From: Periplaneta americana
Lineage: Eukaryota > Arthropoda > Insecta > Blattodea > Blattidae
Direction of reading: 5' to 3'
Length of the DNA: 64,000 bases
Assembly (NCBI RefSeq): GCF_040183065.1
Contig: NW_027185502.1
Coordinates: forward strand, 3,461,501 to 3,525,500
In this document: in pieces, positions 52,131-57,652 of the stretch
Layout of the letters: every line of letters begins with the position of its first letter
How positions within the stretch are numbered: position 1 is the first letter of the stretch
Notes under the pieces: model-generated
Told to the model about the DNA's origin: nothing
The model's database searches: none
Seen by the model: only the letters and a program-made list of their open reading frames with translations
Program-made: the position numbers and the translations under genes

Positions 52131-52794
52131 TTCTGTTACGCATCAGTATCACAGCTGTAGTTTTCGTCCGAATTTCTGCACTTGTTTTTTAAGGTGCTAC
52201 TGGTATTGTCAACACCATAACATAGTCTATTGACTGATATCTAGAAGGAACCCGATTTGATTTGGCTTCTTGCAGCACAGAGAACCTTTTGTCCATTTTC
52301 ATGTGAAGGCAGTTGAGTGATTCCTTCATGACTTTCTCCATGTTTTGTCTAGCGGTTAATGTGATGTATTTCCAGCTCTCGCCAGGCATAATTTTCTTTC
52401 GTCTTTGACATCTCTCAACCTCAACATACCCATATCACTTTTTACAGGGAGCAGTTGACTAAGTTCCTCTTTCGACATCAAAGTTATTTCTGAGACCTTT
52501 CGTATCCAGGGTGGCATCGTGCAATTTCCTGCAGCCTCTTTTGAGCTCGATCAATTGAAATAAGTACTTCGTTCCAACAAAATTCTGTAGGAAAAACAAA
52601 AAAACATGGAGGCTCATGTGTATTTGTAAAACAAGTATAGAAGCAATACCATTTAGCCTACATTATTTGATAATGTTGAAGAACATTTTGAAACTAGCAT
52701 GGTGGAATTCTCTCTGTATATAGGACTCTGTATATATAGGACTCTGTATATATAGGACTCCCAGCAGTAATATCAGATCCTTATTGATAAAGTG
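52131..52794. other. No clear gene; short direct repeats
   Basis: The words TATAGGACTC and CTGTATATA are repeated three times at about 52720-52762. Otherwise unassigned. Confidence 0.4.
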
Positions 52795-53160
52795 GATTTA
52801 ATAATTCATACTTGGCGAAATAGAAACAAAAATATTATAATCGTGGGTGATATAAATGTAGATTTTTAAAAATTATAATAATAATAATATTACTTGGAAA
52901 TTACAACTAGTATTAAACACACATGGCTTAGAGGCAATAGTAAATGTCCCAACAAGAATAGGAAGCAGCAGTCAATCAGCAGTTGGTCAAATAATACTAA
53001 ACAAGGATTTGTGGAACTACAGTTCTAATGTAATAACAACTGGGTTCTATGATCATGAAGCTCAAATCTTGCAGTTACATCTAGAAGATAGGAATAAAAA
53101 TAACTATAATAGTTCTGCTGTATACAAGAAAGTAAGATCCTTTAAGGAAGAAAATATTCA
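52795..53160 (+). pseudogene. Jockey-like LINE endonuclease fragment
   Basis: Pieces read NIIIVGDINVDF (GD-x-N motif) and, one frame over, LVLNTHGLEAIVNVPTRIGS, SAVGQIILN and VRSFKEENIQ. This is the second half of an apurinic-type endonuclease domain as in Jockey-like LINEs. It ends exactly where the CR1-like LINE begins (53161), so the CR1 copy may have inserted here. Confidence 0.65.
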
Positions 53161-53943
53161 GTGAAGAAGCTACGGGAGAAGCTAGAGACGGTGGAGCAAC
53201 GGATCAAGTTTCTGGAGGACGAAAATATGTTGTTGCGACGGGAAAAGGAAAATGGCGAAGAGAGGGAGGAGAAGAAGAAGCATGGTGCGGCAAGTGTTAT
53301 CATCGGAGACTCCATCATTCGACACGTAGGGAATCTACAACCGGAGCTGGCGACGGAGTGTTACCCTGGGATTAGAGTGAAAGAAATGAAAAGCGTGATC
53401 GAGAATCAGGAACGAGGGGACCCGAAAAACATCGTCCTTCACGTAGGAACAAACGATTTGCGAAGAGGTGTTGATTATATCATGGCAGATGTATATGACT
53501 TGGTGATGGAAACGAAGAAGAAATATCCGGCAGCTGAGATTGTCATCAGTGGAATCGTCAGACGGAGGGATGTGAACTGGAGAAAAGTGGGTCGTGTGAC
53601 TAAAGCTTTCGAGTGGGTAGCGGAGTGTCTTGGTGCGCGTTTCGTCGATCCAAATTCCTGGATAGACGACAGATGCTTCGGAAGAGACAGAATCCACCTA
53701 AATCGGAGGGGAGCTGCAGACATGGGATCCCTCTTCGCGCAGGTAGTTACTACAACATGGCGGGGCGGGATCGAGGATCCAACAGCGGGCAGCGGCACCG
53801 AAGGACCATCAGTGGACGGCGGGGGCGTGGGACTACCAGCGGTCAGCGGGGGTGAGAGTCTACCTGCGGGAGGAGGGGTCGAGGGACTACCAGCGGGCGG
53901 TGCGGTCGAAGACCTATCCGCAGGCAGCGTAGACCTGCAGTGA
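53161..53943 (+). CDS. LINE ORF1: coiled coil plus SGNH hydrolase-like domain
   Basis: Open from the truncated 5' end; the first ATG in frame is 53227, and the true start is missing. A heptad-rich, charged stretch (KLETVEQRIKFLEDENMLLR) precedes an SGNH/GDSL fold: VIIGDSIIRHV (block I Ser), IVLHVGTNDLRRG (GTND, block III Asn), and DRIHLNRRGAADM (block V D-x-x-H). Such esterase-like ORF1 proteins are known from CR1-type LINEs, where they associate with the element's RNA. The C-terminus is a Gly/Ala/Glu-rich run of imperfect 9-11 residue repeats (LPAGGGVEG, LPAGGAVED) encoded by GC-rich DNA, ending VDLQ before UGA. ORF2 follows in the same frame. Confidence 0.85.
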   Translation: MKKLREKLETVEQRIKFLEDENMLLRREKENGEEREEKKKHGAASVIIGDSIIRHVGNLQPELATECYPGIRVKEMKSVIENQERGDPKNIVLHVGTNDLRRGVDYIMADVYDLVMETKKKYPAAEIVISGIVRRRDVNWRKVGRVTKAFEWVAECLGARFVDPNSWIDDRCFGRDRIHLNRRGAADMGSLFAQVVTTTWRGGIEDPTAGSGTEGPSVDGGGVGLPAVSGGESLPAGGGVEGLPAGGAVEDLSAGSVDLQ

Positions 53944-55170
53944 CGGCGAGGTGCCACGGGGATTCAGAATGTACAAGTAAGGACAGGCCTACTAAGACTA
54001 CTGCAGGTTAATTGCCGAAGTATTAGAAATAAACTTATTCCGTTTTGGAACTTGGTCGATGTTTATAATCCAGATATAATAATTGGGACGGAATCATGGC
54101 TTAGGGAAGACATAAATGACTCGGAAATTTTTAGGTCGGATTATAGAGTCTTCAGAAAGGATAGAAGTGAAAAGGGAGGGGGAGTGTTCGTTTGTACTAA
54201 GATAGAAATAAGTAGCAATCTTCTGTGGATACATGAGGAAGTTGAAATATTGAATGTTCAGATAAGAAATGGGCGGGAAACCTTAGATGTAATAGCATGT
54301 TACAGACCACCCAGTGAATTAAACAATTTAACTTTGCACAAACTAAATGAATATCTTAATACAGTATCAGAAGACCGAAACGTAGTAATTGCTGGGGATC
54401 TAAACCTCCCGAAAATTAACTGGAACGGGATTTCAGGTACAAATTCAGATGCACAGACCCTTGTTAATGAATTGATCTGGCTTAAAGATTTCACGCAGGT
54501 AGTAAATGGTCCGACGCGTGACAATGCCCTCTTAGATGTTTACCTACTAAGACCTGTCTCTCTCGTTGTCAACTCTGAAAGTCTTCATAAAATAAGTGAT
54601 CACAATAGCGTCTTATTAGAAATCTTCTGGGAAAACACGGTAAATCCGAGGTCAAGTCCACTGTCTGTCTGGAATTTTAACAAAACCGATGTCCATGAAT
54701 TACAAACATTTCTACGACAAAAGCATGATGACTTTCTAAGGACTGAAGGAAATATGGAAAATGTGTGGCATAAATTTAAGAGTATAATTTTCGAGGCATT
54801 AGTAAAATGTGTACCTTCTAAAATAATTAAGAAAAATCCGGACCCAGAATATTACACTAATTATATTCGCTACTTAAAGAAAAAGACAAGGCGCGCATTT
54901 AGCAAACGTAAACGAAGCCATGAGCATTGGGAAAAATATGTCGAATTAATTAAGAAACTTGAGTGTGAAAAAAGGTTAGCTCAGGAAAATTTTCTAAAAA
55001 CTATTTTAAAAGAAGATGAAAGTAACAATTGGAGACAGTTTTATAATTATGTACGCAGGAGAAAAGGAAAAAACGAAGGAGTAGTGCTTTTACGAAATCA
55101 GAACGGAGAAAGTATAACTGATGACAAAGAAAAGGCCGACTTATTAAATTCCTATTTCATTTCGGTTTTC

Positions 55171-55221
<51 letters not shown>

Positions 55222-56781
55222 CCCTCTGATAGGTGTGGTTGTGTCACAGACCATGAATGTGAACCAAATTCGACTTTCAAAATAACTTCCAAAGGGGTTA
55301 GAGAGAGAATAACGAAATTAAAAAATCGGAAGTCTCGAGGACCAGATAGTATTGCTACAGAGATTCTTAAATTAGGTTCCGAGGCCATAATTCCATACTT
55401 AATGCGTATATTTCATGTTTCCATAAACAATGCAGCTATTCCATGTGACTGGAAATCAGCTATAGTGGTACCCATACATAAAGGTGGAAATAAATTAGAT
55501 GTCGGAAACTACAGACCGATTAGCCTTACATCTGTTGTATGTAAAGTCATGGAGCATTTGATATCGAATTATATTCGTCACGTTCTAAATGCGAAAGACT
55601 GGTTTTACAACCACCAGCATGGTTTTAGGGAAGGCTTCTCATGTGATAGTCAAATTACGTCCCTGGTTCAGGATCTAGCTGAAGAGGTAGATAGAGGCGG
55701 AAGAATTGATGCAGTTGTGATTGATTTTTCGAAAGCATTTGATTTGGTGCCACATGACATATTAATAGATAAGTTAAGTAGGCTAGGAATAGATAAAAGA
55801 GTGGCGCTATGGATTCAAGAATTCTTAAACGGTAGAACCCAGAGAGTTAGAGTAGGTCATGAAATATCGGAAATTGGAAATATAAGTTCAGGGGTGCCAC
55901 AGGGCAGCGTTCTGGGTCCATTACTCTTTATAATATACGTAAATGACCTATGCCAGAATATTACATCAAATATGAGGCTATTTGCAGACGACTGCATTAT
56001 CTATAGAAAGATTAGAAATAATTCAGATGTAGATGCTATTCAAACAGACTTGAATAAAATTTATAACTGGGCGTTAAAGCATAGGATGAAAATAAATGGT
56101 TCTAAAAGTAAATCTACAACATTTTGTAAAACCCGAGAGGAAACTAGTCTTAATTATGAATTCAATGGTGTTGTAATTCCGCAAGTACAATATTATAAAT
56201 ACCTAGGAGTGTATTTAAACTCCAAACTTTCTTGGGGAGAGCATGTTGATAATGTTATGGGTAAAGCATGGAGGGCACTTCACTTTATTATGAGAATCTT
56301 GAGAAAGGCTAGCCCCAAATCGAGGGAAATAGCATATCTAACGTTAGTGCGACCGTTAATGGAATACGGAACTACATGTTGGGATCCCTATAGAATATAC
56401 CAGATAAATTCCTTAGAAAGAATCCAGTATAGGGCAGCGAAATTTGTTAAAGGTAAAAGAGAAGATGGAAATGATACGATAGAAGAACTTAAATGGGAAA
56501 CTTTGGAAAACAGACATAGGAAAACTAGAATAACATCATTGTATAGAGCACATCTAGGTCAGAAAGCATGGGTAGACATAACGGCTCGGTTAGGAAAGCC
56601 AACATACTATGGTAGGAACGATCATGATTTTAAAATCAAATGTAGGAAACAGAAAACGGATGTAGGTAAATTCTCATTTTTAAATAGAACTATAAATGAT
56701 TGGAATGACCTACCTGTAGCGGTCTTCGAGGGCTGTCCTTCCTTAAGGAGATTCAAGAATAATTTAAAAAGTTGTATATAA
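53944..56781 (+). CDS. LINE ORF2: endonuclease and reverse transcriptase (readthrough product?)
   Basis: About 945 codons open directly after the ORF1 UGA, in the same frame. Endonuclease: LLQVNCRSIRN, IIGTESW, IACYRPP, VIAGDLNLPKINW and ISDHNSVLL, with all catalytic blocks present. Reverse transcriptase: KSRGPDSIATEIL, NYRPISLTSVVCKVMEHL, HGFREGFSCDSQ, VVIDFSKAFDLVPHD, GVPQGSVLGPLLF, RLFADDCIIY and YKYLGVYL. C-terminus with RIQYRAAKFV and WNDLPV. No in-frame ATG occurs before 54754, which lies after the endonuclease. A poly-Asn run sits between the domains. The protein looks functional; the clade (CR1/L2-like) is assigned from SGNH ORF1 and RT style. Confidence 0.9.
55172..55221 (+). repeat. 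(AAT)n microsatellite inside LINE ORF2, encoding poly-Asn
   Basis: About 17 in-frame AAT codons between the endonuclease and the reverse transcriptase. The frame is kept, which is consistent with either tolerance or recent expansion. Confidence 0.95.
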
Positions 56782-57652
56782 AGTGAAAATTAAAATTAAG
56801 GTGACATTCAACATTTAATTTTTTTAAGATGACATGTATTTATCTAGGCTGACGAGTTTACTTCCTTGGTTTGAATTGTAAATTATTTAAAACTAGCGTG
56901 TAAGAGGGCCTTAGACTAGAAGAGCCCTATTCATAGACATTCTTAGAGCGGGTTAAATAGCTACTTCCGGTGGATGATCAGCGAACTAACGTTTTTCGTA
57001 TTCATAAACTAGTGTTAGCGATAATACGTGTACTAAGAGGGGTTTGGCTGGCTAAATTTTAGTCCCCGCCGGTAGGGTAGTTTAGAGGCCGACTAGCTTA
57101 GCAAGATGGCTGTTATGATGCAGTGAATGTGGGTTATGTACGTCGAATTCGTGATGTGATATGTAGGAGGAAGACGTACCTACCGAGATTGGACATATTT
57201 AGAAAATATGAAGTACACAACATTAGTCAGGCTTCTGTAAGATGTATAATAACGAATGTGTCAGTAGCAATCACTGGACTTGCGCTTCGTTACGTACGTT
57301 TTCCTAGGGAAGAAAAACGAATAACACTGCGAGAAAGTTTGACGACATCGCAAGATTCCCTTCAGGTAATTATATTTCATGATTTGAATATTGTATGTGA
57401 ATGCTTTCTTAGAGAAATTTGTACTGTACCGGTACCATATTGGTACAGTAGGTCTATTGTGATATTTCATCATTTTTAGGTTATTGGCGCCATAGATGAC
57501 ACGCACATACCCATAACAAATGTAGGAGGAGAACTGTCACAAATATATATCGACCGAAAAGGATGGTATTCTCTATTAAACGTTCAGGTACGTACTGTAA
57601 ATGAAATTACAACCCATAAGAGGTTATGTAGACCAAGGCTGAAATTTTGGTG

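Follow-up and report, generated by a model that had tools for sequence, protein, structure and literature searches.

The window, a stretch of 64,000 nucleotides from the genome of Periplaneta americana (contig NW_027185502.1, positions 3,461,501 to 3,525,500), holds on its forward strand the remains of a CR1-like LINE that is truncated at both ends (53161..56921), its limits being those of homology to other copies. On the 5′ side the match to other copies sets in at about 53161 (query position 16), and beyond the 3′ break at about 56921 (query 3776) they diverge from the window, all eight copies examined past this break continuing with another sequence. Full-length copies extend about 1223 nt upstream of the ORF1 stop, and the window copy has no ORF1 start of its own. 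Truncated in this way it cannot be a working element, so that the question raised by its junction concerns the family to which it belongs.

The 3′ part of ORF1 (53161..53940, forward strand, like all features given here) comprises a stretch that resembles a coiled coil by eye, an SGNH/esterase domain and Gly/Pro-rich repeats, and ends in ...SVDLQ. Its frame is open from 53146 to 53943 and closes with a UGA (53941..53943), the proposed readthrough codon; ORF2 (53944..56781) continues in the same frame from a CGG (53944..53946), the type II readthrough context, the codons around the junction being GTA GAC CTG CAG, TGA, and CGG CGA GGT GCC ACG GGG. ORF2 spans 945 codons with an APE-type endonuclease (Pfam PF14529, 54286..54612, ORF2 residues 115-223) and a reverse transcriptase (PF00078, 55477..56214, residues 512-757), both matches being above their cut-offs, and its first in-frame AUG (54754..54756) is codon 271, behind the endonuclease match. 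This layout, from the CTG CAG TGA followed in frame by CGG to an ORF2 of about 945 codons with its first ATG at 54754, past the endonuclease, agrees with the original prediction. The SGNH domain that it had assigned to ORF1 is also supported: the window ORF1 matches Lipase_GDSL_2 with an E-value of 1e-6 and 29.8 bits, below the curated Pfam cut-off of 32.9, and the longer ORF1 of L008, a full-length copy of the same family, has a match at 3.7e-12 to a chain of solved structure, 4c1b ('ORF1-encoded protein'), described as the esterase of ZfL2-1 (PMC3905857). In L008, ORF1 also contains a PHD finger (PF00628) above the Pfam cut-off, with Lipase_GDSL_2 again below its own. APE endonuclease and reverse transcriptase thus lie together in ORF2, as in APE-type non-LTR elements, and ORF1 is of the PHD and/or esterase type (PF00628, and the esterase through the 4c1b match). 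The assignment to CR1 is tentative, being based on this ORF1 type and on general resemblance, and we therefore write CR1-like. A Pfam scan found no protease domain.

Between the endonuclease and the reverse transcriptase, the window ORF2 has a run of 17 AAT codons (55171-55221) encoding poly-asparagine, and L008 has a similar, not identical, run. Abutting the broken 5′ end, positions 52780-53160 resemble by eye part of the endonuclease frame of a different LINE, and Pfam returned nothing on 52862-53161. Downstream, the frames at 57102-57580 resemble by eye a fragment of a PIF/Harbinger-type transposase, with nothing returned by Pfam on 57102-57479. The other CR1-like pieces in the window and in the fetched flanks contain no ORF1/ORF2 junction.

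The ORF1/ORF2 junction across copies and families

Copies were searched for in the whole genome (3.23 Gb, 91 contigs). A DNA search for the junction gave 621 candidates, of which the best 40 (the window and L001-L039) were scored and all read: TGA CGG is present in 40/40. These copies are young, so that their uniformity reflects few source elements. A second search with an ORF1 relative, P0147, for which 127 of 934 candidates were scored, defines three families, A (61-68% identity to P0147), B (80-93% among the fetched copies) and C (54-55%); the ORF1 identity is about 67% between A and B and about 55% between C and B. From part of the rows of this search, 14 copies of B, 13 of C, six of a 371-codon subgroup of A and five diverged A copies were fetched. 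Eight further places (L079-L086) added four copies of family A (L080, L083, L084, L085) and one of B (L082); L079 lies beside a run of N (327/501 bases) and could not be read, and in L081 and L086 the element breaks off ahead of the junction.

TGA is present in 82 of the 83 readable junctions (A 55/55, B 14/15, C 13/13). The following codon in family A is CGG in 51/55 copies, CGA in three and CAA in one, all four exceptions belonging to the diverged copies (TGA 5/5; CGG 1, CGA 3, CAA 1); TGA CGG is found in 6/6 copies of the 371-codon subgroup and in each of L080, L083, L084 and L085. L078, also of family A, keeps the TGA and has a one-codon deletion after it. Family C has TGA CGG in 13/13. 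Family B has TGA AGA in 14/15, the exception being a decayed copy with TGG (L043). No sense codon joining ORF1 and ORF2 was found among the A or C copies read.

The spacing is also conserved between A and B, both of which reach the NC at the endonuclease core 22 codons after the stop, and in none of the 55 family-A copies does this interval contain an in-frame ATG. The frame from stop to endonuclease core, as judged by script, is unbroken in 9/14 copies of B plus L082, and in 11/13 of C; in the remaining B and C copies the frame is broken, the search motif carries substitutions or there are insertions. In L055-L065 of family C an Ala/Thr-rich linker, varying in length by whole codons (50, 52 or 54), leads to the NC, the frame being kept in these 11 copies. 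An AUG in frame with ORF2 is present in family C, 12 codons ahead of the endonuclease core. In B and C an AUG overlaps the ORF1 stop in another frame and opens ORFs that lead nowhere, of 23 and 43 aa respectively; a SART1-like AUG in the ORF2 frame at or near the ORF1 stop was not found. Since the three families are related, their shared frame represents one inherited arrangement rather than three independent ones.

A search with the endonuclease, in which 150 of 3432 candidate places were scored, gave an open frame of at most 963 aa around the endonuclease in 148/150, with ORF2 frames open for about 939-963 aa in dozens of them. The frame is longer in two places (2610 and 2346 aa), of which one, L080, has the TGA and the other is L079, beside its run of N.

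The comparison of stop, context and spacing across genomic copies that the original prediction had proposed is therefore in its favour as far as family A is concerned (TGA in 55/55, an ATG-free interval of 22 codons in 55/55). It had taken as evidence against a family-wide trait that most intact copies should have a sense codon, an offset frame or an AUG ahead of the endonuclease; this is not the case in family A. Beyond it, family C has an AUG before the endonuclease and family B a TGA followed by AGA.

Stop context and constraint after the stop

Type II readthrough is described as taking place at a UGA with CGG or CUA on its 3′ side, in many cases with a stem-loop about 6-12 nt downstream (PMC11166343). 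The UGA-CGG of the window, proposed from the outset as a context of leaky termination, corresponds to this description, and so do 51/55 junctions of family A and 13/13 of family C; family B departs from it. Family C reads UGA CGG CGG CA and then a stem, AAUAGUAU-loop-GUACUAUU, which starts 8 nt after the stop and is present in 12/13 copies (8 bp in 11, 7 bp in L055), being interrupted in L067. It was matched by 3/3000 dinucleotide shuffles, and the 100-nt fold has a z of -2.74 (1/200 shuffles); as the family-C copies are near-identical, they provide no covariation evidence for the stem. TGA CGG with a predicted 8-bp stem 8 nt on is the layout described for type II readthrough.

Families A and B have no stem at this distance, and no significant structure follows the stop of family A. 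The short GGC-GAGGT-GCC hairpin originally suggested just after the window stop did not withstand analysis: the folds of three stretches of 90-120 nt following the stop are not better than those of dinucleotide shuffles (z 0.40 to 0.95), and no stem of at least 4 bp with a loop of 3-9 nt starts 5-12 nt after it. Selenocysteine insertion at the UGA was considered and rejected, an Rfam scan of 53100-57200 giving one chance match and no SECIS.

The comparison of families A (L008) and B (L048) shows where the protein sequence begins to be constrained. Codons 1-10 after the stop have almost nothing in common (nine nonsynonymous, one synonymous), and codons 11-21 (53974..54006 in the window) differ almost only at synonymous sites (eight synonymous, one nonsynonymous, two identical, in an ungapped comparison), giving the peptides QVRTGLLRLLQ in A and QVRTNLLRLLQ in B. 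The same codons of L008 and L041 give seven synonymous, two nonsynonymous and two identical. Over codons 11-59 third positions account for 28/49 substitutions against L041 and 27/46 against L048, the ungapped comparison failing further downstream, where indels lie. An in-frame coding constraint past the stop, as in type II readthrough, is thus present from codon 11 on. Together with the lack of a same-frame AUG in A and B, this constraint implies that ribosomes either pass through the stop or enter ORF2 within about ten codons of it.

Among 20 copies fetched at length, ORF1 is fully open in 7/20 and ORF2 is open for at least 940 codons in 4/20, and L008 is the sole one with both frames fully open (ORF1 of 385 aa, TGA, ORF2 of 944 aa). 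L011, L013, L016 and L017 have 3-5.7 kb of upstream sequence in common at about 99% and are segmental duplicates of one insertion; flanks were compared for L001-L020, and three duplicates were dropped to leave 18 family-A copies, whose mean pairwise divergence is 1.8%. With 60-nt blocks more than 12% divergent masked and nonsense changes excluded, variants common to at least two of the 18 copies are 19 nonsynonymous to 19 synonymous, and singletons 330 to 141 (one-sided Fisher p 0.01, with only 38 shared variants). This excess of synonymous changes among shared variants gives a weak indication in the direction expected if source elements need both ORFs.

Routes to the ORF2 protein

The UGA being kept in 82/83 junctions of three related families, the enzyme that copies the element is likely made by readthrough of the stop. 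We consider it probable that the endonuclease/reverse transcriptase of this CR1-like LINE arises by readthrough of UGA-CGG, as a fusion of ORF1 and ORF2; this was the original prediction, and the comparison of copies and families lends support to it. Most ribosomes would stop at the UGA and release the ORF1 protein with its PHD finger, coiled coil and esterase, and a small share would insert an amino acid there and continue into ORF2. The two products would then stand in a gag-pol-like ratio. The predicted fusion would keep the enzyme attached to the esterase protein, since the Pfam scan gave no protease domain that could separate them. Readthrough accounts for the constraint pattern and also explains why ORF1 and ORF2 have a common frame. 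Counting against it is the context of family B (TGA AGA in 14/15), and family C could reinitiate at its in-frame AUG, 12 codons ahead of the core.

The alternative that survives best, although we regard it as unlikely, is termination followed by reinitiation close behind the stop at a codon other than AUG, which would yield a free ORF2 protein; the ACG at codon 5 is the most plausible start. GCC ACG G is a good Kozak context, and this ACG is kept in 53/55 family-A copies (one codon nearer the stop in L078), being lost in L022 (GCA) and L083 (ACA), single copies that prove little. Since constraint begins only at codon 11, codons 1-10 need not be translated, and coupled stop-start translation is described for the LINE SART1 (PMC5972666). 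However, family B has GCG at the ACG site and by eye no near-cognate start in common with A, and nonetheless keeps both the frame and the 22-codon spacing to the endonuclease core; moreover, reinitiation would not oblige ORF2 to keep the frame of ORF1 in all three families.

Still less probable is that the stop has no role, the ORF2 protein coming from a spliced or alternatively started RNA, or in trans from other elements. Copying in trans is known for LINEs, but ORF2 frames are open in dozens of the places scored and the shared variants hint at constraint; a spliced RNA, for its part, would be copied back stop-free, and no such copy is present among the 83 junctions read. Finally, that the window copy is merely dead, its stop a recent CGA-to-TGA mutation by CpG decay of a formerly single long ORF, as the original prediction had allowed, can practically be dismissed, because, although CGA is one step from TGA and the window copy is itself truncated, the junction codon is TGA in 82/83 cases, TGG in one and CGA in none, only 87/2577 CpG cells (3.4%) have decayed in the 18 family-A copies, all of which have the TGA, and the same TGA is present in families that diverge from P0147 by 33-45% in ORF1.

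Among 12 ORF2 relatives in other records, nine are called from an M start, which counts against readthrough, and three (P0007, P0008, P0013) begin with V or L and lack an M ahead of the endonuclease; starts chosen by gene callers prove neither case. The search for relatives with both halves joined gave one match, P0001, a protein of 1535 aa predicted for a cockroach; the junction region is left out of it, and it is thus no evidence of a sense codon at the site. Partial matches to Periplaneta americana proteins are P0001 (84% over 43% of ORF2) and P0005 (99% over 31%). No relatives were found in viral contigs or, by protein search, in a collection of genome contigs, and L040, a pattern match on a contig titled bacterial, was rejected, the ORFs there showing no LINE.

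A possible gag-pol-like programme and its counterparts

The full ORF1 begins with MGCELELYRARIGGWAAR..., followed by a hydrophobic stretch, LLIIGGIELNPGP (2A/StopGo-like), the PHD finger, the coiled-coil-like stretch, the esterase and the Gly/Pro repeats. The hydrophobic leader and GGIELNPGP are found near the ORF1 N-terminus in L008 (4587-5741) and in other full-length copies, and [GD]xExNPGP is present in 29/53 ORF1 matches, some of them proteins assigned by name to Zootermopsis, Cryptotermes and Gryllus. Odon reportedly found in 2013 that APE-type LINEs carry 2A, and the cockroach ORF1 is like these in having a hydrophobic leader and then GGIELNPGP near its N-terminus. Compared with D(V/I)ExNPGP, GIELNPGP has the ExNPGP and a G in place of D as first residue, unlike the motif as stated in PMC4981915, where that residue is D; we thus regard GGIELNPGP as a putative 2A/StopGo-like motif. 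According to the same source, N-terminal 2A-like sequences of the sea urchin have a double role in cells of mammals and plants, recoding translation and serving as signal sequences (PMC4981915). In the cockroach element the motif would separate the protein from the hydrophobic leader, and it lies on the same RNA as the proposed readthrough stop, so that one RNA would use two recoding events, StopGo and readthrough. We cautiously favour, by a small balance of probability, a gag-pol-like programme of cockroach LINEs in which StopGo frees the esterase protein from a membrane leader and type II readthrough sets a low, fixed dose of the fusion, a trait that would predate the three families and after which an ORF2 AUG would have become dispensable.

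The closest counterparts by domain content are ZfL2-1 and the CR1 clade of the Jockey superfamily, which, like the cockroach LINE, have an ORF1 with PHD and SGNH esterase and an ORF2 with APE endonuclease and reverse transcriptase. Unlike those CR1-like LINEs, the cockroach element has its ORFs in one frame with a single UGA between them and no ORF2 AUG before the endonuclease. A 2014 survey assigns the esterase ORF1 of L2/CR1 to vertebrate groups only (PMC4120745), the host here being an insect, and a 2013 paper also lists cnidarians and sponges (PMC3905857). With type II readthrough the element shares UGA-CGG (A and C), a stem 8 nt on (C) and constraint after the stop; it differs in that the proposed case is in a LINE, in that A has no stem, and in the UGA-AGA of B.

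The Gag-Pol of LTR retroelements and retroviruses likewise has structural and enzyme ORFs in frame around one stop. In murine leukemia virus a UAG between gag and pol is described as being read through (PMC5009743), and in Tca2 a UGA separates gag and pol, the way past it being called unclear (PMC2194720). In contrast to these elements, the cockroach element is non-LTR, has an APE endonuclease and has a predicted fusion that stays tethered. In SART1 (UAAUG) and mammalian L1, ORF2 expression is described as depending on ORF1 translation (PMC5972666, PMC2881922); SART1 and L1 restart at an AUG, whereas families A and B lack any same-frame AUG between the stop and the endonuclease core.

Control of the protein ratio is described for few LINEs, and the reviewed cases in these sources restart at an AUG (PMC5972666, PMC2881922). 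A limited literature search found no description of stop readthrough as a route to a LINE ORF2, which is not proof of absence. The conserved in-frame UGA is likely the gate to the enzyme of this CR1-like LINE. If so, the retroviral gag-pol solution would be brought into non-LTR elements, and the contexts of the three families, CGG in A, AGA in B and CGG plus stem in C, would form a natural series for the evolution of a readthrough signal. Physical tethering of the enzyme to the ORF1 protein would, moreover, explain cis preference.
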